A DNA stretch of 9,148 nt, from contig JACQWU010000176.1 of assembly GCA_016209155.1 (NCBI GenBank), positions 1 through 9,148 on the forward strand. Direction: 5' to 3'. Both the position numbers and the translations under genes were made by a program. This DNA is from Candidatus Desantisiibacteriota bacterium (GTDB lineage: Bacteria; JACRDZ01). Positions 1-9,148 of the stretch are shown in pieces; the first letter of the stretch is position 1; the number at the start of each line of letters is the position of its first letter. The notes under the pieces are model-generated. The model was given only the letters and a program-made list of their open reading frames with translations, was not told the DNA's origin and ran no database searches.

Positions 1-60
1 AAAGAAAAAGGGGAGAAAACTGTAATTTTAATTGAACATGGTTAGGATATTTAAACTTAT

Positions 61-91
61 TACCTGAATCTTGCATGGCAAGATTCAGGTA
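61..91 (+). terminator. Strong hairpin, candidate terminator of an upstream gene
   Basis: A perfect 14-bp stem (TACCTGAATCTTGC, 61-74, paired with 78-91) closes on a 3-base loop ATG. It is followed by ATTAAGTCTTTTAC, which has only a short T-run, so it is a plausible but not textbook intrinsic terminator. One frame open from base 1 stops at TAG 43-45, 16 bases before the stem. That would fit the end of a plus-strand gene lying mostly outside the window, but the piece is too short to identify. The hairpin could instead lie in the 5' leader of the methyltransferase gene, whose start is 39 bases downstream. Confidence 0.5.
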
Positions 92-129
92 TTAAGTCTT
101 TTACTCTTAATTATATGAGGATACAAAAT

Positions 130-906
130 ATGAGAATTATTGAAAAAGCAGCAAAAAGATTTGTTCTTGAAACAGGAAGTTTTATCAGATATGTAATTCA
201 GCAAGTAACACAGGATGAAGATTTATTAAGCAGAATAGCTAACAGATACAGATCTGATAAGGGCACAAGAAAAATCTTACAATCTGAAGGAGATCGCCAA
301 TTTTATACTCCTATTTATCATAGTTATTTTTCAAAAATAAGAAATGATCATTTACTGGAAATAGGTATTGGATCAGGTGCTTCAATAAAAATATGGGGAG
401 ATTATTTTACTGATGCAGCTTTAAATTTTATCGATATTAATGATCATACCCGCCTAAACACAAAACGTATCCGCTGTTTTAAAGGAGATCAATCCAGTAG
501 GGATGATTTGAACAGGATTGCACAGACCATAGGTCAAAAGTTCGACATCATTATTGATGATGGAGGTCATTATATGGTTCAGCAGCAAACCAGTCTGGGT
601 GTATTATTTAAGTATTTAAAAGATGGGGGCTTGTATTTCATAGAAGATCTTGTTACTTCTCATTGGCCATATAATGAATATAAATCCGTATATAATAATA
701 TTCCTATTGATACCAATAAAGACAAATCTAATTCAACTCTTAATATGCTTCTGAATTTCATTGAAACAAAAAAGATGAGAAGCCTTTATCTCAGAGAAGA
801 AGAGATGTATTATCTGAATGGTGCAATTAAGTCATGTGAAATTCATGATACCATTATCAATAAATATGGACCAAACCATTTGGGTGTAATAATTAAAAAT
901 CAATGA
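130..906 (+). CDS. Class I SAM-dependent methyltransferase, MycE/TylE-like
   Basis: Predicted 258-residue soluble methyltransferase. Seen: SAM-binding motif I LLEIGIGSG at residues 75-83, the acidic end of beta-2 (IDIN, 101-104), the motif IIDDGGHY (about 141-148), then LKDGGLYFIEDL near 163-174. An ANRYRSDKG segment precedes the fold at about 38-46. This order (SDKG, EIGxGxGAS, GDQS, IDDGxH, GGLYxIEDL) is that of the metal-dependent sugar O-methyltransferases of macrolide biosynthesis (MycE, TylE) and their many relatives in polysaccharide clusters; the DDGxH and ED acids match the family's metal-site region. I prefer the ATG at 130 over the one at 115: TGAGG at 116-120 is a good ribosome binding site 9 bases before 130, while 115 has none. 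Substrate unknown; a surface or secreted sugar is the likely guess. It converges on the PEP-CTERM remnant. Confidence 0.85.
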   Translation: MRIIEKAAKRFVLETGSFIRYVIQQVTQDEDLLSRIANRYRSDKGTRKILQSEGDRQFYTPIYHSYFSKIRNDHLLEIGIGSGASIKIWGDYFTDAALNFIDINDHTRLNTKRIRCFKGDQSSRDDLNRIAQTIGQKFDIIIDDGGHYMVQQQTSLGVLFKYLKDGGLYFIEDLVTSHWPYNEYKSVYNNIPIDTNKDKSNSTLNMLLNFIETKKMRSLYLREEEMYYLNGAIKSCEIHDTIINKYGPNHLGVIIKNQ

Positions 907-907
907 G

Positions 908-1105
908 TTATTTATTCCCGGTTTTATTATACATTTTAAATCCTAAAAGTCCCGCCATGGATAAGCTTAATAATAGTATTGTTGAAGGTTCCGGAACGGG
1001 ATTTGAATTGTTAAATGTTTCAAATTCTGTAATATTGAGCGGAATTGTATCATTAACTCTTATATCTATATCATTCTCATAATGCTTATGGTATCTCCTT
1101 TTTAA
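908..1105 (-). pseudogene. PEP-CTERM sorting-signal tail of an internally deleted exported protein
   Basis: An open frame of 65 codons without a usable start ends in a clear PEP-CTERM signal: VPEP at residues 37-40, a hydrophobic helix STILLLSLSMAGLLGF (41-56), then a short basic end with three lysines before the stop at 908-910. In the family this tail directs a protein with an N-terminal signal peptide to an exosortase (EpsH/XrtA type) for cleavage and surface delivery, usually in exopolysaccharide-producing Gram-negatives. Here only about 35 residues of passenger precede it and no signal peptide exists. Upstream are an excellent promoter and AAGGAG (1095-1100), but the first ATG after it (1078-1080) is in another frame and stops after four codons. 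I infer a deletion between the ribosome binding site and the tail, real or from assembly. A simple frameshift would not restore a signal peptide. Confidence 0.75.
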
Positions 1106-1122
1106 TTAAACACATACATAGT

Positions 1123-1151
1123 AATATACTAAAGCATTTAAGTAATGTCAA
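1123..1151 (-). promoter_or_regulatory. Sigma-70-like promoter of the PEP-CTERM gene
   Basis: On the minus strand TTGACA (1146-1151, perfect -35) is followed after exactly 17 bases by TATATT (1123-1128, 5 of 6 matches to the -10). Transcription would start near 1116, leaving a short leader to AAGGAG at 1095-1100. The 12-bp palindrome GTCAAATTTGAC (1147-1158) overlaps the -35 box and could be an operator. The good match suggests that the PEP-CTERM gene was functional until recently or is intact in relatives. Confidence 0.65.
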
Positions 1152-1217
1152 ATTTGACTTTAAAAAAGGGTGTATCCCACTTCAGACGGTTACATAAATA
1201 TTAATAATTTTAAATTA

Positions 1218-1279
1218 AGCGAAGCTAAAGCTTCGCACTACATTTTATTGTATTTGTAGTGCGAGGCTTTAGCCTCGCT
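1218..1279. repeat. REP-like inverted pair of small hairpins
   Basis: Two 18-base palindromes face each other: GCGAAGC-TAAA-GCTTCGC (1219-1236) and GCGAGGC-TTTA-GCCTCGC (1261-1278). With the flanking ACTACA/TGTAGT they form 25-bp outer arms (1218-1242 and 1255-1279) around a 12-base loop, with two mismatches. Those two differences are compensatory inside each small hairpin (A-T in one, G-C in the other), so each unit keeps its own perfect stem. This is the architecture of dispersed REP/BIME elements mobilised by REP-associated Y1 transposases. Lying beyond the 3' end of the minus-strand operon, it may also stop its transcription; the minus-strand copy is followed by a moderately U-rich stretch. 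No RAYT gene is in the window. Confidence 0.7.
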
Positions 1280-1395
1280 ATAGGATGCGAGACGAGAAAA
1301 AAAATAGTTTTATTCATTTTAATTTTTGTAATAATCATAATAAACTTAAATGAGCAATATTTCCCTTCAGCCTTCAGTCTAAACCCCTAATTAAG
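1280..1395. other. Intergenic, AT-rich, no gene
   Basis: This stretch lies between the REP pair and the 3' end of the TPR lipoprotein gene. It holds a tandem heptamer CCTTCAG x2 (1364-1377) and several A/T runs. I see no coding frame, and no conventional terminator hairpin next to the lipoprotein stop codon. Confidence 0.4.
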
Positions 1396-3246
1396 TTATT
1401 GTGATTCTTTAATTTTATCATTCAGCCATTCTTCAAATATTTTTTGTTCAGGATTTAAAGATAATGATTTCTTCCCGGATTCTATGCACCTGATATAATC
1501 TTTTATGCAATAGTAGCTATGGGACAGAATCCTGTAAAAGTCAGCGTCATTACCGAATTCTTCAATTGCAGACAGTGTCTGTTCAATAGTTTCTTTGCAA
1601 TAATGATTTTCAAATAAATAGTAAATTCTTCTTTTCCTGATCCATTTTTTTAAAATTTTGTAATCAGGACTGATTGCCATAGCTTTTTCCGCATAATCAG
1701 CCGCTTTTTTATAATTTTCCTGACTGTCATAGCAGTAGGCAATTATCCGGTAGGCATAAGCTTCATTTTCTTTATTTTTAATCATTTCATTGGCAAGTGC
1801 CATGGCTTCAACATATTTTTTTGTTTGAAACAAATAATATAATTGTTTTTTATGTATCCATTTTTTGAAAAAATCGCTATCAGGATTAATTTCAAGATAT
1901 TTTTTTGCGTAATCAATGCATTCCTGATACATATTTAATTCACTGTAGCAGAATGCCAGATATTGATATGAATATGCATCATCTCCGTAATATTTTATCG
2001 TATCCTGAAAGACTTCTGCGGCTTCTTTATATTTTTTTAGTTCATATAGAAGGTAACCGCTTTCATGATATCTGCCTACTCCCTTATAATCAAGGTTTAT
2101 AATTGCTTTTGCATATTTAATAACATTTTTTTCATCACCGGTTTTATTGTAGCTGTAAGCTAAAAGTTTATAAGTGTTGGAGTCGCTTTTGCTTATTTTA
2201 AGCATCCTTTTAAGATGTTCTATAGCTTCCCAGTATTTTTCTATACCATATAAGGAATATGCAAAATTTCTATAAGCGCGATAATTGGCGGCAGCAAGCA
2301 GATCGTCATCCATGGAGGGATAGAATTTATTTTTAATTAATTCAAATTCTTTTAAAGCAATATCATATTTTTGCGCAAGCATCGCAAATTCAGCATAAAA
2401 GACATGTATTTCAAGGTTTTCAGGATTATTTTTTATAAATGTCATATATTTATTATTCACTTTTTTCCATACCTCCGGTTTTTGCAGGTATTGGTTTTTT
2501 AAATTCATAGCATCAACCATTTCTCTCTGCGCCATAGTTATAATAGTAAGTCCAAGATCATTATCATCAGGGGATTTATTTAAAGTTTCCAGTGCAAATT
2601 CAATCATCTTATCATGCGAACCATACCATTTTCGCGCAAAATAGTTTAATTTATTAATATGAGAGGCAAGATTATATGGATCTGCTTTGATAGCATGCTG
2701 AAACTGTGTCTCCATATAATTTGTATCGAGATTTAATCCTTTTGCGACAGTAATTAAATAGGTTGCGGCATGAGGATCGGCCGGATCTAATATACCGGCT
2801 TTTTCAAGATCGGTTTTAGCTGCGTTTAATCTGATGGTGAAAAAGGTAATTGCATCTTCCGGATTATTATTATTTCCATAGTCTTTATCGACTTCTTCCC
2901 ACGCATAAATTATATAAAAGTAACCTCTGGCTGTGTGTGCAATAGGTGAGGCGGGACGGGATTCACACCATTCATTCAGATTTTGCAGAATGTTATTATT
3001 TGAAGCTATATTGGAGTATATGCTGTCAATAAATTCCGAATTTCTTTTGTCTTTAAGCAATTCGTTAATAAGAGATTCAAACTCAATATATTGTTTATTT
3101 AATAAATATTCTGCTATTCTCTCTTTATCTTTTGCTGTAGGAATAAGATGTTTTTTTGTGTTAAACCGGATTCCTGTACATCCTGAAAAGAATAAACCTG
3201 TAAGTAAACAGCAAAAAACAAAAATTTTGGGAATTCTATTTTTCAT
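1396..3246 (-). CDS. TPR-repeat lipoprotein with DUF4034-like N-terminal region
   Basis: A 616-residue exported lipoprotein. The N-terminus is a lipoprotein signal peptide: KNR, a hydrophobic stretch, then FSGC with the lipidated cysteine at 23; the next residue is Thr, compatible with outer-membrane sorting. Residues of roughly 40-250 resemble DUF4034 (PASPIAHTARGYFYIIYAW and the later KWYGSHDKMIEFA). The C-terminal half, from about 315, is a TPR solenoid, which in this class serves protein-protein contacts. Residues 387-602 form three 72-residue units, each with two helical hairpins, and 603-616 is a cap starting a fourth. It is the last gene of the operon; its ATG overlaps the end of the glycosyltransferase gene by 11 bases, with AAAGGA upstream. 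Likely a periplasmic or outer-membrane scaffold; PEP-CTERM systems also use TPR lipoproteins (PrsT), but I cannot claim orthology. Confidence 0.85.
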   Translation of the reverse strand: MKNRIPKIFVFCCLLTGLFFSGCTGIRFNTKKHLIPTAKDKERIAEYLLNKQYIEFESLINELLKDKRNSEFIDSIYSNIASNNNILQNLNEWCESRPASPIAHTARGYFYIIYAWEEVDKDYGNNNNPEDAITFFTIRLNAAKTDLEKAGILDPADPHAATYLITVAKGLNLDTNYMETQFQHAIKADPYNLASHINKLNYFARKWYGSHDKMIEFALETLNKSPDDNDLGLTIITMAQREMVDAMNLKNQYLQKPEVWKKVNNKYMTFIKNNPENLEIHVFYAEFAMLAQKYDIALKEFELIKNKFYPSMDDDLLAAANYRAYRNFAYSLYGIEKYWEAIEHLKRMLKISKSDSNTYKLLAYSYNKTGDEKNVIKYAKAIINLDYKGVGRYHESGYLLYELKKYKEAAEVFQDTIKYYGDDAYSYQYLAFCYSELNMYQECIDYAKKYLEINPDSDFFKKWIHKKQLYYLFQTKKYVEAMALANEMIKNKENEAYAYRIIAYCYDSQENYKKAADYAEKAMAISPDYKILKKWIRKRRIYYLFENHYCKETIEQTLSAIEEFGNDADFYRILSHSYYCIKDYIRCIESGKKSLSLNPEQKIFEEWLNDKIKESQ

Positions 3247-4378
3247 TATTTTTTTCCTTTTGTAATACTATTGAAACAATTTCAGAAGCAGAATCTGGTT
3301 TTGCAATAGTTTTTATGGATTGTTTCATTTTTTCAAGCTGATTTTTATCATTCAATAGTTTATCAATTTTATATGCAAGAGTTGGGAGATTATTACATCG
3401 TATTGCGACTCCTTCTTCAAGAAAATGATCGCTATTGCGCTGTTCCTGCCCCGGTATCGGATTTACTATTACCATTATAAGATCTCTGGCAAGAGCTTCT
3501 GAGCTTGTTAATCCTCCGGATTTTCCTATTAAAATATTTGATGCCGCCATTAGTTCATCCATTTCATTTGTAAAACCTATTATTTTCACAGGATGTTTGA
3601 AATTATTAATATTTTCTAAACGCTGTTTTAATATATTATTTTTACCGCAGACTATAATCATCTGAATTGGATATGTTACTTTATTTACTGATTCCGCTAA
3701 TGATTCAATAGGCCCCACCCCAAATCCGCCCGCGGAAATAAGAAGTGTATTTCTATCGGGAAGAAGCCCAAGCTTTTTTCTGATTTCATCTTTTGATTTT
3801 TTAACAGCGAAGACGGGATCGATCGGTATTCCTGTAACATGTATTGTATTTCGCGGTATTCCCAATTCTGACAGATATTCACGGGTTTCTTCACAGGCCA
3901 CGAAATACCAGTCCACATTTTTGTACAGCCACATTGCATGAGCGTCAAAATCTGTAACCACAACACCAATTTTAATATCCAGAGATCTTTTTTTACGAAG
4001 ATAAATGAGAATTTCAGCAGGTAAAAAATGAGTGCAGATTACTATTTCCGGTTTTTTATAATCCAAAAGTTTTATTAATTTTCCGGTGTTTAATCTGTCA
4101 AGAGCCAACCGTCTTTTTTGCATTTTCCACGGCCGGTCTAAAGAATTATACATCCATCCCACAAGATCGGGTCTTTTATTTACAAAATCAATATATAAGT
4201 CAGAATAAACCTGCCGGAAAAAAATATTTGTATAGCGCAGGACTTCAATGTGCTCGGCAGAAATACCTTTTAAAGCAAAGGCTTTAACAAGTGCAAGAGC
4301 GGCGCGTATATGCCCTGCCCCTGACGCGGCGGATAAAACCATTATTGAACCGGAGCTTACCAAATCATTTGATTTCAT
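3236..4378 (-). CDS. UgtP/MGDG-synthase-like glycolipid glycosyltransferase (GT28)
   Basis: A 380-residue GT-B glycosyltransferase. Seen: the N-terminal glycine-rich motif SGAGHIRAA (residues 19-27) and THFLPAEIL (116-124) of the MGDG-synthase N-domain, VTDFDAHAMW (141-150), then the C-domain donor-binding motif GKSGGLTSSEALA (285-297) and PIPGQEQRN (307-315). These are intact and full length for the family (plant MGD1, Bacillus UgtP, processive diacylglycerol beta-glycosyltransferases), which move galactose or glucose from the UDP-sugar to diacylglycerol at the cytoplasmic membrane face; no membrane helix is evident. MurG is a more distant relative, but the GQE and GGLTSSEA pattern favours glycolipid synthesis. 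The start codon shares one base with the kinase-homologue stop (TAATG) and has GAGG five bases upstream, so the two are translationally coupled. Acceptor lipid and donor sugar are unproven. Confidence 0.85.
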   Translation of the reverse strand: MKSNDLVSSGSIMVLSAASGAGHIRAALALVKAFALKGISAEHIEVLRYTNIFFRQVYSDLYIDFVNKRPDLVGWMYNSLDRPWKMQKRRLALDRLNTGKLIKLLDYKKPEIVICTHFLPAEILIYLRKKRSLDIKIGVVVTDFDAHAMWLYKNVDWYFVACEETREYLSELGIPRNTIHVTGIPIDPVFAVKKSKDEIRKKLGLLPDRNTLLISAGGFGVGPIESLAESVNKVTYPIQMIIVCGKNNILKQRLENINNFKHPVKIIGFTNEMDELMAASNILIGKSGGLTSSEALARDLIMVIVNPIPGQEQRNSDHFLEEGVAIRCNNLPTLAYKIDKLLNDKNQLEKMKQSIKTIAKPDSASEIVSIVLQKEKNNEK

Positions 4379-5259
4379 TAATACCTCATTTTCAGTTTGT
4401 CAGGCAGTATTTCAAATTGAAAATAATTATTTTTTTTCTCCAGAGTGCCATGAATTTGAAGATATAAATCTATATTTGTTTTTATACTTATTTTTTCAGC
4501 TCTTTTATATTCGCCGATTTTATTTTTATATAAAAAGGAGGCGGCTATCCCATAACAGATCTTTAAAATTCCGGAATTTAAATATAGAATATGTATATTC
4601 CCGTCACTGATTTTTGCATCAGGGACTATATTAAGACCAAATCCATAATATGGAATTTTAGTAACAATTATTGATAAAAAATCAGGAACATTGATTATTT
4701 CACCGTCTATATTTATTTCTACATTAGATCGCACATAATCTTTTGTTATTGATTTTGCGGTAGCTTTTATGTACGGCAATAAACCTTTCAGTCTGTTGCT
4801 TTTATCCTCCCTTATATATTGTTCGCGCAGTTTCAATATATGCCCGTCTAAGCCTACACTGGCAAATAGAGCTTTTTTTTCAGCATCACATAATATAAGA
4901 TCGGCATAGCGGGTTTTGCCGTTTTTAATTTGATTAAGATTTTTAATAACAGAACCGGAAAGATGTAAAGTATATTTTAGCGCATTTCCGGTCCCAAAAG
5001 GTAAATATGCGATAGTTGTTTCAGGTCTTATTGTATTTATTATATCACATATTGTCCCGTCACCGCCGCATCCAATTATAATATCGACATTATTTTCAAT
5101 ATCTTTTACGCAATCACAAAATTCTTTAGCAGATTTAGTATCGAGTCCGGCAATAATACATTCATCTCCAAGAAATTTTGCGGCTTGCTTTAATATATTA
5201 TTTTTTTTATCAATACTTAATGTCCCTGAGCATGGATTTGCAATAATCCCATATTTCAT
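4378..5259 (-). CDS. Diacylglycerol kinase family protein (DgkB/YegS-like), C-terminal motif altered
   Basis: A 293-residue member of the DAGK-catalytic/LCB5 family of soluble lipid kinases. Seen: the start NPCSGT (8-13), the nucleotide-binding loop GCGGDGT (63-69), PFGTGNALKY (87-96), FASVGLDG (132-139), a mid-protein DGE (185-187) and the SDG signature (218-220). In DgkB and YegS a second, C-terminal DGE supplies acids implicated in catalysis and metal binding; here the equivalent site appears to be HGT (270-272), so kinase activity is uncertain. The ribosome binding site GGAG lies 8 bases before the ATG, and the gene follows the GGDEF/EAL gene by 30 bases. Family members phosphorylate diacylglycerol (or related lipids) with ATP. 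Next to a diacylglycerol glycosyltransferase homologue, it would control or sense the same lipid pool. Length is normal for the family. Confidence 0.85.
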   Translation of the reverse strand: MKYGIIANPCSGTLSIDKKNNILKQAAKFLGDECIIAGLDTKSAKEFCDCVKDIENNVDIIIGCGGDGTICDIINTIRPETTIAYLPFGTGNALKYTLHLSGSVIKNLNQIKNGKTRYADLILCDAEKKALFASVGLDGHILKLREQYIREDKSNRLKGLLPYIKATAKSITKDYVRSNVEINIDGEIINVPDFLSIIVTKIPYYGFGLNIVPDAKISDGNIHILYLNSGILKICYGIAASFLYKNKIGEYKRAEKISIKTNIDLYLQIHGTLEKKNNYFQFEILPDKLKMRY

Positions 5260-5289
5260 CTGAAAATCTCCATACCTTATTGATAATCT

Positions 5290-8082
5290 CTATCTTATAG
5301 ATAATGAAAGCATCTTCTCTGCATCTATATAGTTTAGGGGCTTTTGGATTATGAAACCGCGTGTATATTCATATTGCATTTCATGAAAAATTTTAAATTG
5401 TTCTTTAGTTTCAATTCCTTCTGCCATAAGATCAATATTAATAGTATGAGCAAGCTTTACCAGTGTTTTTACTATTTCTTCATTATATTTGTCAGATCCT
5501 ATTGTGTCAATAAAAGAATGGCCTATTTTAAGCCCATTAATAGGAAAATTACGCAAATAATATAATGCAGAGTGTCTGGAGCCAAAATCGCTGATATCAA
5601 CTTTAATATCAATGTTTCTAAGCTTTTGAAGCGTATTAATAGTATAATCGGGATTATTTATTAGCATTTTTTCTGAAATTCCAATCCTTAAACTACTGCC
5701 TTTTATTCCATTAATAATTTTTGAAATAAATTCTATGATTTCTGTATATAAAAACGTTTTATCTGAAATATTAACATTGATAATTAGCTCTTTATATTTA
5801 GTGAATTTTTTTCTCCATTGGGATACGTTTTTACAAGCTTCCTTTAGTTTCCATTGATCCATCTGGACAATGAATTCAGTATCTTTTACAATATGAATGA
5901 AATCTGATATGGAAAGTAATCCTCGTACAGGATGATGCCAGTATAATATAGCTTCAAATCCGTTAATTTCATTAGTTATAATAGAAATCAAAGGTTGATA
6001 ATAAAGCTCAAACTCATTATATTCAAAAGCTTTGCGCAGTTCTGATTCCACTGAAAGCTTGTTTAATGCATTATGATGCATATCCGGTTTGAAAATTACA
6101 TAACATGCCTTGCCCTGTTCTTTTGCTTTATATAAAGCAATATCCGCATCCTGCAAATATTTTTCAGGATTTGAATAATTAACTACATCACTTGAGGTTA
6201 TACCAATGCTTAAAGTAATAAAAATTTCTTTTCCATTCAAATCAAATGGATGTTTGCTTAATTCGTGAATTCTTTCCGCAACCTGTTTTATGCATTTTGG
6301 TTCACTTATGTCCTCAATCAGTATTGCAAATTCATCCCCGCCAAAACGCGCGACTGTGTCGACATTTCGCATAACTTTTTTTAATCTTTCTGATACCATT
6401 ATTAAAAGCTGATCCCCGACTAAATGCCCGAGACTGTCATTTATTATTTTAAAGCGGTCTATATCCATAAAAAAGACGGCAAAAAGATAATTATTATATC
6501 TTTTTTTACGTGCAATAGCTGTGTTTAAGCGGTCAAGAAATAAGACTCTATTCGGAAGATTGGTAATAGAGTCATAATAAGCCTGATGTTTGAGCTGTTT
6601 TTCGGCTTCTTTGCGTATTACAATCTCTTTTTCCAAAAGTTTATTGGTGTTTGAAAGCTCTTCGGTTCTTTCTTTAACCAGAAGTTCTAATTTATCATAA
6701 AGCAAAGCATTTTTTAAAGAAACAGCAATCTGACTTGAGAAAGTCTTTAAGAGATTTATGTCTTCGCTGGAGAAAGAGTCTCCGGAAAGTTTTTCCCCAA
6801 GCATAAGCAGAAAAGAAAGATCATCTTCTATTATAATAGGGATTGCCACTTCTCCTTCAATCAGTCTTAATTCATCAATAATTTTATTTATTTTTTCTTC
6901 ATCTGTCTCTTTATATAAAAGTTCATCTTTAATAATAATATTTTTTTGGTTTTTTAGTGTCTTAATAAGCTCCCAGTCAGTTTTAAGCTTATATATATTC
7001 ATTTCATTATTTCTATCAATGTTTTTGTAATTATAGCAGGATATTATTTCAGTTTGATTATTGTTTATTGATAGAAGATATAGAGTTTTTAACTTCATTG
7101 TGTCATAAACAGTATCAATAATAAATTTGTAAATATATTTAAGATCTATAGTTGAGGCAAGGATATGACTTGAGTTCTGAAGAATTGAGTAATAATCATA
7201 TTTTGATTTATAAAAAATTTTTTCAACAAATACCTGAACAAGATTTTTTAGAGGATCGAAAATAAATGCCATTATGAGTGAGGAAAGAACAGTAACTGTA
7301 AAAGAGTTTATTCCAATATATTCCGATACATATTTAGTTGAACCGATAACAATAATAATAAATATTCCTGTCAGAAGTCCTGCAGAAATTGTGTATGCGA
7401 CTGCTCTTGTGATAGCCATACTAATATCCATCAACCGGTAGCGCAGAATAGCATAAGACAGTATGAAAGAATATATGGTGATTCCGAAATTACTGTATGG
7501 ATAGAATAAATCCAATTCAAATACCGGTAAAAAAGTTGCCGTTCCGCCAATAAAACCAATCATAAAACCAAATATTATATATTTTGCCTGAGTATGTTTA
7601 AAACCGTGTGTGTTTTTAAGAAATACCACAAGTTCATAAAAACTTAAAATAACAAAAATAATATATATAAAAAGACCAATAAAATAGAGTAAATTTAATT
7701 TTAAAAATATAATATTAAAAGCCATTCTTGTTTTATTAAAAAGGATGTTAGTCCCAAAGCTCAGTAAGATAAAAATACATGCCTCTATATATCCGGAAAT
7801 GATAATTTTTTTTCGATTAACCGAAGTTAGATCGCATACTAATGTGTAAAATATCGGTCCAATAAAAAAACCGCCAAGATGAGCAATTTTCCATGCCAAT
7901 ATTGCCTGTTGTTCATTTTTTGCAATACCTATAAGAAATAGACCGAATCCCCAGATGGCAACTACAATATTAAATGCAAGAAGTTTATTGTGAAGTTTTG
8001 ATTTCCCGAAAATTATTGTTATTAATGACAATAAAATACAGGAAATACATACAGATAATCCTGCTATAGCAAATAAGTTCAT
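5290..8082 (-). CDS. Membrane sensor GGDEF/EAL protein (7TM-like, GAF), intact GGDEF and degenerate EAL
   Basis: A 930-residue c-di-GMP signalling protein. Order: about seven membrane helices (1-220) like the 7TM sensor region of histidine kinases, two more helices (about 228-248 and 258-276), a GAF-like domain (about 300-460), a coiled coil (about 462-500), GGDEF (about 500-662) and EAL (about 675-925). The cyclase site RFGGDEF is intact (GGDEF 581-585) and an inhibitory I-site RNVD lies at 572-575, so diguanylate cyclase activity with product feedback is expected. The EAL half keeps E710, N771, E804, D832, K852 and E888, but the signature reads EAI with Tyr714 for Arg, and Gly801, Ser831, Gly854 and Arg908 replace the usual Glu, Asp, Asp and Gln. 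It is therefore probably a poor or dead phosphodiesterase. The ATG overlaps the upstream small-gene stop (ATGA) with GAGG 7 bases before. Confidence 0.92.
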   Translation of the reverse strand: MNLFAIAGLSVCISCILLSLITIIFGKSKLHNKLLAFNIVVAIWGFGLFLIGIAKNEQQAILAWKIAHLGGFFIGPIFYTLVCDLTSVNRKKIIISGYIEACIFILLSFGTNILFNKTRMAFNIIFLKLNLLYFIGLFIYIIFVILSFYELVVFLKNTHGFKHTQAKYIIFGFMIGFIGGTATFLPVFELDLFYPYSNFGITIYSFILSYAILRYRLMDISMAITRAVAYTISAGLLTGIFIIIVIGSTKYVSEYIGINSFTVTVLSSLIMAFIFDPLKNLVQVFVEKIFYKSKYDYYSILQNSSHILASTIDLKYIYKFIIDTVYDTMKLKTLYLLSINNNQTEIISCYNYKNIDRNNEMNIYKLKTDWELIKTLKNQKNIIIKDELLYKETDEEKINKIIDELRLIEGEVAIPIIIEDDLSFLLMLGEKLSGDSFSSEDINLLKTFSSQIAVSLKNALLYDKLELLVKERTEELSNTNKLLEKEIVIRKEAEKQLKHQAYYDSITNLPNRVLFLDRLNTAIARKKRYNNYLFAVFFMDIDRFKIINDSLGHLVGDQLLIMVSERLKKVMRNVDTVARFGGDEFAILIEDISEPKCIKQVAERIHELSKHPFDLNGKEIFITLSIGITSSDVVNYSNPEKYLQDADIALYKAKEQGKACYVIFKPDMHHNALNKLSVESELRKAFEYNEFELYYQPLISIITNEINGFEAILYWHHPVRGLLSISDFIHIVKDTEFIVQMDQWKLKEACKNVSQWRKKFTKYKELIINVNISDKTFLYTEIIEFISKIINGIKGSSLRIGISEKMLINNPDYTINTLQKLRNIDIKVDISDFGSRHSALYYLRNFPINGLKIGHSFIDTIGSDKYNEEIVKTLVKLAHTINIDLMAEGIETKEQFKIFHEMQYEYTRGFIIQKPLNYIDAEKMLSLSIR

Positions 8083-8252
8083 TGTTTGCCCTCAACCTTA
8101 ATATTATTGTTTTGTCCGTTGCTTTTTATTATCAATTTCTTGACTGCTGAAATTATATTTGGATGAAATGAAATATTTTTTGCTGTGTGCTCTTCAAAAT
8201 TCTCTATCCAGTGCGGACTTGTATTTAAAGATTCCTTATCTGGAAGCGCCAT
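8079..8252 (-). CDS. Small hypothetical protein, 57 aa, first gene of the operon
   Basis: I do not recognise this protein. It begins MALPDKESLN, contains HWIENFEEH, a short amphipathic stretch IISAVKKLII (34-42) and a polar Asn/Gln-rich end, with no signal peptide or membrane helix. Support that it is real: an exceptionally strong ribosome binding site (AAAAAGGGAGGG, about 5 bases before the ATG), a good promoter at 8294-8322 giving a leader of about 35 bases, and a stop codon that overlaps the GGDEF/EAL start as ATGA. It may be a regulator or partner of the sensor, or a short coding leader that sets translation of the next gene by coupling. Confidence 0.65.
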   Translation of the reverse strand: MALPDKESLNTSPHWIENFEEHTAKNISFHPNIISAVKKLIIKSNGQNNNIKVEGKQ

Positions 8253-8293
8253 TAATACCCTCCCTTTTTATGATTCGTTTCTCGATTTAAGAT

Positions 8294-8322
8294 ATTTTAC
8301 AATTTTTAAATTAATTTGTCGA
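8294..8322 (-). promoter_or_regulatory. Sigma-70-like promoter of the five-gene operon
   Basis: On the minus strand TCGACA (8317-8322, 5 of 6) and TAAAAT (8294-8299, 5 of 6) are separated by exactly 17 bases. The expected start of transcription is near 8287, about 35 bases before the ATG of the small gene. It is the only good promoter seen ahead of the set ending at 1396. Confidence 0.6.
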
Positions 8323-8349
8323 TAGATTTCACCTTACCCTGTTTTTTCC

Positions 8350-8379
8350 TTGACTTATTTATGTTTATTGTGGTTAAAT
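8350..8379 (+). promoter_or_regulatory. Promoter of the histidine kinase gene
   Basis: TTGACT (8350-8355, 5 of 6) and TTAAAT (8374-8379, 4 of 6) are 18 bases apart, and TGG just before the latter makes an extended -10. An AT-rich inverted repeat (AAATTATT 8376-8383 and AATAATTT 8395-8402) overlaps the -10 and the presumed start of transcription. It diverges from the operon promoter, with the two -35 boxes 27 bases apart, so one regulator could act on both. Confidence 0.45.
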
Positions 8380-8436
8380 TATTATACATACATAAATAAT
8401 TTGGCTGGTCAAGACATAAAAGGAGACGGTTAACAT

Positions 8437-8598
8437 ATGCGAAAGAAAGCAGCCCCTACAGAATTTTTTCCGGTTATCATGAAAGATAAGAATTTTGAAA
8501 AAGAGCTGAGACAGATAAACAAATATCTGCAGATATTTGTTTATCTGTCTCAGCTCTTTTTCAAAATTCTTATCTTTCAGAAGAGCTTAATGGATTAA
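8437..8598 (+). pseudogene. 5' fragment of the broken PAS histidine kinase gene
   Basis: The ATG at 8437 has a good ribosome binding site (AAAGGAG, ending 8425, 11 bases away) and begins MRKKAAPTEFFPVIMKDKNF. A charged segment like a helical linker (KDKNFEKELRQINKY, residues 16-30) follows, typical of what stands before a PAS domain. From about 8530 the frame reads through the second arm of the palindrome, giving an unrelated hydrophobic stretch (LSQLFFKILIF) that is simply the antisense of the first arm, and stops at TAA 8596-8598. As written it encodes 53 residues. I infer that codons 1 to about 31 are the true N-terminus of the kinase whose remainder starts at 8580 in a different frame. 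Confidence 0.6.
8480..8579. repeat. Perfect 100-bp palindrome, no spacer, inside a kinase gene
   Basis: Bases 8480-8529 and 8530-8579 are exact reverse complements: 50-bp arms, no mismatch and no loop, centred on CTGCAG (8527-8532). Identity ends sharply at both sides (A8479 against G8580). The left arm fits the coding frame of the kinase, so the right arm is the foreign copy. It stands where about 40-50 residues of the PAS domain should be. It is neither a terminator (no T-run, inside a gene) nor an insertion sequence. Confidence 0.95.
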
Positions 8599-9148
8599 AT
8601 ATAGATAATTTTCATCCTGAAAAAAATATCCCTTATGTTATGGGGCAGTTTGAGAAACAGGCAAGGGGGGAGATTAATTTAGTTTTGGATATTCCCTGCA
8701 TTAGAAAAGATGGTTCTGTTTTTTATGCTGACATTAATTCTTTTGACATAACCATAGACGGTATAAAATATTTAGCGGGTATATTCAGAGATATCACCGG
8801 GCGCAAAAAAACAGAAGAAATACTCTTGAGCTATCAGAATAAACTGGAAGAAATGCTAAAGAAGAAGACCTTAGAGTTGGTAAAAGCACAAAAAGATATA
8901 CAGGATGCAACACGTCTCTCTGATATCGGAACACTTGCGGCAACTATTGCTCATGAATTAAGAAATCCTCTGGGTGTTATCAAAGTAGCGGTATATAATA
9001 TAAAAAGAAAAACACCGGGAGATATGATTGACGACCACATAGATAATATAAATAAGAAGATCGGTGAGTGCGACCGGATTATAAAAAACCTCTTGAGTTA
9101 TTCACACATTAAAATATCGAATTATGAAAATATACGTATAATGGATGT
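8580..9148 (+). CDS. PAS-HisKA sensor histidine kinase, 5'-truncated and cut by the window end
   Basis: The frame is open from 8499 but only from 8580 does it read as kinase. The fragment has 189 residues counted from 8580. Residues 1-74 are the second half of a PAS domain (EELNGLNIDNFHPEKN, IRKDGSVFYADIN at 41-53, GIFRDITGRK at 67-76); 77-112 form a coiled-coil linker; 113-180 are the dimerisation/phosphoacceptor domain with the H-box IAHELRNPLG, phosphorylatable histidine at residue 125 (codon 8952-8954). The ATP-binding domain would lie beyond the edge. No membrane helix is seen, so a cytoplasmic kinase is likely. There is no start codon near the PAS; the first in-frame ATG is at 8640, inside the domain. 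The true N-terminus is probably the ATG at 8437 in another frame, separated by the palindrome. It is divergent from the c-di-GMP/lipid operon. Confidence 0.75.

Follow-up and report, generated by a model that had tools for sequence, protein, structure and literature searches.

The perfect 100-bp palindrome at positions 8480-8579 of the window, by which we mean the whole 9,148-nucleotide stretch of DNA analysed here, most likely does not exist in the genome itself. We consider it probable that it arose by fold-back during library preparation or assembly and is absent from the DNA of the organism. The palindrome is exact, it breaks the reading frame of a histidine kinase gene where part of the PAS domain is missing, and a scaffold gap with overlapping, unmerged and differing flanks lies nearby. 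We infer that the joining took place in vitro or in silico rather than in the cell. Caution is therefore required, and the draft provides no basis for annotating the kinase as truncated or the palindrome as an element. If the palindrome were real, a wild bacterium would offer a clean example of template-switch mutation over a long stretch, and the persistence of such palindromes could be tested on it.

Structure and rarity of the palindrome

As the original prediction stated, the left arm (8480-8529, plus strand) and the right arm (8530-8579, minus strand) are complementary at 50 of 50 positions with a spacer of 0 nt. The inverted copy is identical to its source and directly adjoins it, which is a property of the artefact class. 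The centre of the palindrome reads CTG/CAG, and both outer boundaries are sharp: the 51st pair is A/G, and the pairs further out match at chance level. Based on base composition, a palindrome of this kind is expected by chance about 4e-24 times in the window and approximately 1e-21 times in 3.08 Mb. As single-stranded DNA, it is predicted to fold into a single hairpin of -51.9 kcal/mol (z -14.5).

The palindrome sequence occurs as a single copy in its own draft genome and not in the multiple copies that would mark a Rickettsia-type palindromic element or a REP sequence. It was absent from the 59 other genomes searched, and an exact search of the viral contigs gave no match to its core. We also surveyed 99 contig stretches from the same draft genome (972 kb, or 32% of the total), and no other zero-spacer palindrome with arms longer than 15 nt was found in this sample. 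The runner-up among the zero-spacer perfect palindromes has 15-nt arms and belongs to a dispersed repeat (GTAGAGACGCAAAA/TTTTGCGTCTCTAC), and the perfect inverted repeats with a spacer of up to 60 nt have arms of at most 31 nt, the longest being within another repeated sequence. The 100-bp palindrome is an outlier in the sampled 972 kb and not a recurrent artefact.

The interrupted kinase gene

The kinase gene starts at the ATG at position 8437, with AGGAGA upstream (Shine-Dalgarno sequence AAAGGAGA). The gene start and the N-terminal linker (MRKKAAPTEFFPVIMKDKNFEKELRQINKYL; 8437-8529, plus strand) include the left arm, which is translated in frame from this ATG to give MRKKAAPTEFFPVIMKDKNFEKELRQINKYLQ. 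The right arm sits where the PAS domain would be expected to begin with its N-terminal part. The resumed kinase (8580-9148, plus strand), which contains the rest of the PAS domain and HisKA, is open from before 8580, runs past the end of the window and does not share the frame of the gene start (8437 mod 3 = 1, 8580 mod 3 = 0). The PAS_9 profile was matched only from position 29 of 103, and the score of 25.3 bits is just under the cut-off of 27; the PAS domain is incomplete, and its first ~28 positions and the linker are missing. The HisKA phospho-acceptor domain was recognized (PF00512, E 3.6e-10), and beyond the scaffold gap the kinase stays in frame to what reads from the sequence as a HATPase-type C-terminus. 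Three other genomes encode PAS relatives (for example, KYRLLFETSADGILIADIKTRQFKDSNPAMRRMLGYSEEELAEM), in which approximately 36-45 residues stand at the location of the right arm. The original prediction that the PAS domain resumes in another frame agrees with these results, and its estimate of 40-50 missing residues is about right. However, its claim that the existence of the kinase depends on the palindrome goes too far, because the HisKA and HATPase-type C-terminal part is intact downstream, except for a 22-N scaffold gap that lies just beyond the window and was therefore invisible in the stretch on which the prediction was based.

A codon model built from 270 long ORFs (median scores: coding sequence, 3.8; open antisense stretches, -3.2) was used to compare the two arms. 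The left arm scored +2.7, and the right arm scored -0.7 when read in frame with the kinase and -4.2 when read in frame with the ATG. Because these scores, although calculated from few codons, favour the left arm, it is the likelier original, and this agrees with the earlier description of the upstream half as coding-like and the second half as antisense. We rejected the opposite arrangement, with the original PAS sequence in the right arm and its copy in the left, because codon usage speaks for the left arm and extension of the PAS match into the right arm gained just 1 bit, although 16 codons represent weak evidence.

The comparison genomes included three of the same phylum and none of the same genus or family, and the search for a parental allele in relatives recovered only distant PAS relatives. 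A contig search with the resumed kinase as the query found no relative. An alignment-based contig search found three distant kinases, the best of them in an Omnitrophota draft genome, with no usable counterpart of the damaged PAS domain; this best match is a hint at the phylum of the source but no proof of it.

Quality of the surrounding assembly

The source is a draft genome of 3.08 Mb in 352 contigs, with a completeness of 78.8%. The window corresponds to positions 1-9148 of a 10,512-base scaffold (C119), and its end coincides with the start of a 22-N scaffold gap (C119:9149-9170; L003 2070-2091) that lies inside the kinase gene, 569 bp from the palindrome. The last 20 nt of the window (AATATACGTATAATGGATGT; 9129-9148, plus strand) recur beyond the gap (AATATCCGTATCATGGATGT) with two A/C differences, and both differences are synonymous and are located at third positions of isoleucine codons (ATA/ATC). 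Because the flanks repeat these 20 nt, the scaffold connects two ends that overlap but were left unmerged. These ends probably stem from two haplotypes, which would make the gap a false one, and sequencing error is also possible. Unmerged overlaps, of 7-32 nt, were also observed at other gaps in this genome. The sampled 972 kb contain 23 gaps, and at this density the probability that a randomly chosen point falls within 569 bp of a gap is approximately 2.7%. Accordingly, the palindrome lies in poorly assembled surroundings, which is another property of the artefact class. The insertion of Ns despite an overlap is a described assembly error of IDBA-UD and CLC, and local assembly errors without any read support are named alongside it (PMC7111523). 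We also considered that the arm length might equal the k-mer overlap of the assembler, and this proposal was rejected because the sole end-to-end overlap observed was 141 nt, not 50.

Nucleases acting on palindromes

The SbcC and SbcD models gave only weak matches in the draft genome, none of them above the curated cut-offs. A Metallophos protein of 378 aa adjoining a 900-aa AAA/coiled-coil ATPase is encoded in contig C186, and these two genes are a divergent Mre11/Rad50-type pair. In vitro, the E. coli SbcCD complex cleaves hairpins that correspond to palindromes with lengths from 20-36 bp upwards (PMC4245961). Since a pair of this type is encoded, a 100-bp hairpin would probably be a target, and the palindrome may be unstable in this host, although the pair is divergent and the draft genome incomplete. 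These data bear only in part on the premise of SbcCD cleavage in the original prediction: a divergent pair is present, but no match exceeded the SbcC or SbcD cut-off. In a separate contig (C138; L124 3953-5218 and 5260-5805, minus strand), a Rad50/SbcC-like ATPase gene is apparently split into two ORFs and adjoins a helicase-like ORF, which may reflect a frame error or a defence-type locus.

Origin of the palindrome

If the palindrome is an artefact, a DNA strand ending at 8529 would have been copied back over itself for 50 nt, either in a chimeric library molecule or through the local extension of the assembler. The fold-back product would then have been connected at 8580 to the genuine downstream sequence, and this join would have bridged a poorly covered or strain-mixed stretch, with the loss of approximately 105-135 nt that truly encode PAS. 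Chimeric reads of the fold-back type have been documented as an artefact (PMC10908179), and fold-back or inverted chimeric reads arise from library preparation and whole-genome amplification (PMC10908179, PMC6218980 and PMC12870357); like the palindrome described here, they consist of a sequence followed by its own inverted copy. The likeness to the local assembly errors of metagenomes (PMC7111523) lies in the neighbouring gap with its unmerged overlap. We favour an artefact because the host sequence is a fragmented and incomplete draft, because a gap with differing, overlapping flanks would rarely lie so close by chance, and because the unmerged overlaps at other gaps match a known type of assembler error. 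Moreover, the frame of an otherwise conserved gene is destroyed with no other decay, the arms are still 100% identical with nothing similar elsewhere in 972 kb, and the encoded Mre11/Rad50-type pair would probably target such a hairpin. However, a chimera with one switch would run back upstream, and an N-free return to the correct downstream gene, unlike what is known of fold-back reads, needs a second jump. Because even an exact overlap of 18 nt was not merged by this pipeline, one would expect k-mers to support a chance join at 8579/8580, and an artefact of a systematic kind might be expected to recur within 972 kb.

The original prediction named a fold-back artefact and a very recent fold-back template switch as the two options, and these are the right two. 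Both would leave the same sequence, namely a source, its inverted copy, a deletion and a return. A real four-point template switch, which would mean that this uncultured bacterium truly carries the zero-spacer palindrome in its chromosome alongside genes for an Mre11/Rad50-type pair, is the main rival and in our view possible but less likely. At 8529, the replicating strand would have jumped to the opposite strand as template, copied it backwards for 50 nt and regained its own template at 8580, with the deletion of approximately 105-135 nt; the resulting null allele of the kinase would be very young and present in one strain, probably at low frequency. A single event of this kind accounts for the left arm, the inverted copy, the deletion and the collinear return of the kinase at 8580 (mechanism: PMC8794818), and it is consistent with the N-free junction, with the strain mixture that is probably visible at the adjoining gap and with the uniqueness of the palindrome in 972 kb. 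A perfect inverted copy adjoining its source, produced in one event with a collinear return, is also shared with four-point template switches (PMC8794818) and with quasi-palindrome switching in E. coli (PMC7202029). Unlike in those systems, the copy described here is long, has no spacer, breaks the frame and is accompanied by a sizeable deletion, and the parent allele was not seen. The likely sensitivity of a perfect 100-bp palindrome to the encoded nuclease pair, the 15-nt limit of the next-longest zero-spacer arms in the sample, the closeness of the assembly gap and the lack of other decay in the kinase all argue against a mutation.

Two further explanations appear much less probable. A true inverted repeat with a spacer, in which a segment that failed to assemble separates the left arm from a right arm before 8580 so that the loop was lost in assembly, is very unlikely. 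Assemblers tend to stop contigs at shared k-mers, and one contig pair shares exactly 141 bp at the contig starts, which would fit such a loss; however, the right arm looks like antisense rather than PAS sequence, the arm has no other copy in the genome, and Ns were left at joins elsewhere. It is equally hard to credit a functional or mobile palindromic element (a Rickettsia-type palindromic element, a REP sequence or a phase switch). The location in a coding region recalls the Rickettsia palindromic elements, which are palindromic and lie inside genes (mentioned in PMC6649704). Yet those elements are repeated and mobile and leave the protein working, whereas the palindrome here is disfavoured as an element because it is single-copy, breaks the frame and is host coding sequence in its left half; its absence from the 59 other genomes and the viral collection points the same way. 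Long perfect inverted repeats inside protein-coding genes are also known from the mitochondria of Nematomorpha (PMC6649704), but those palindromes are many and both of their arms code for functional protein, whereas the single one found here breaks the frame.

Other repeats in the window and the draft genome

The dispersed perfect palindrome that was the runner-up in our survey is 28-30 bp long and occurs in at least six copies in 972 kb (L030 1306-1333, L030 2191-2218, L058 1343-1370, L079 1389-1416, L108 2571-2600 and L118 3517-3544). The window contains two intergenic inverted repeats of the terminator or repeat type, one at 1218-1279 with 25-nt arms (92%) and a 12-nt loop, and the other at 55-97 with 20-nt arms (95%) and a 3-nt loop. 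In addition, a stretch of approximately 65 bp at 8262-8336 (minus strand), upstream of a small ORF that precedes a GGDEF-EAL gene, has a copy with 91% identity just upstream of another gene (G000:C151:970-1035), and this pair possibly represents a shared promoter or a dispersed intergenic repeat.
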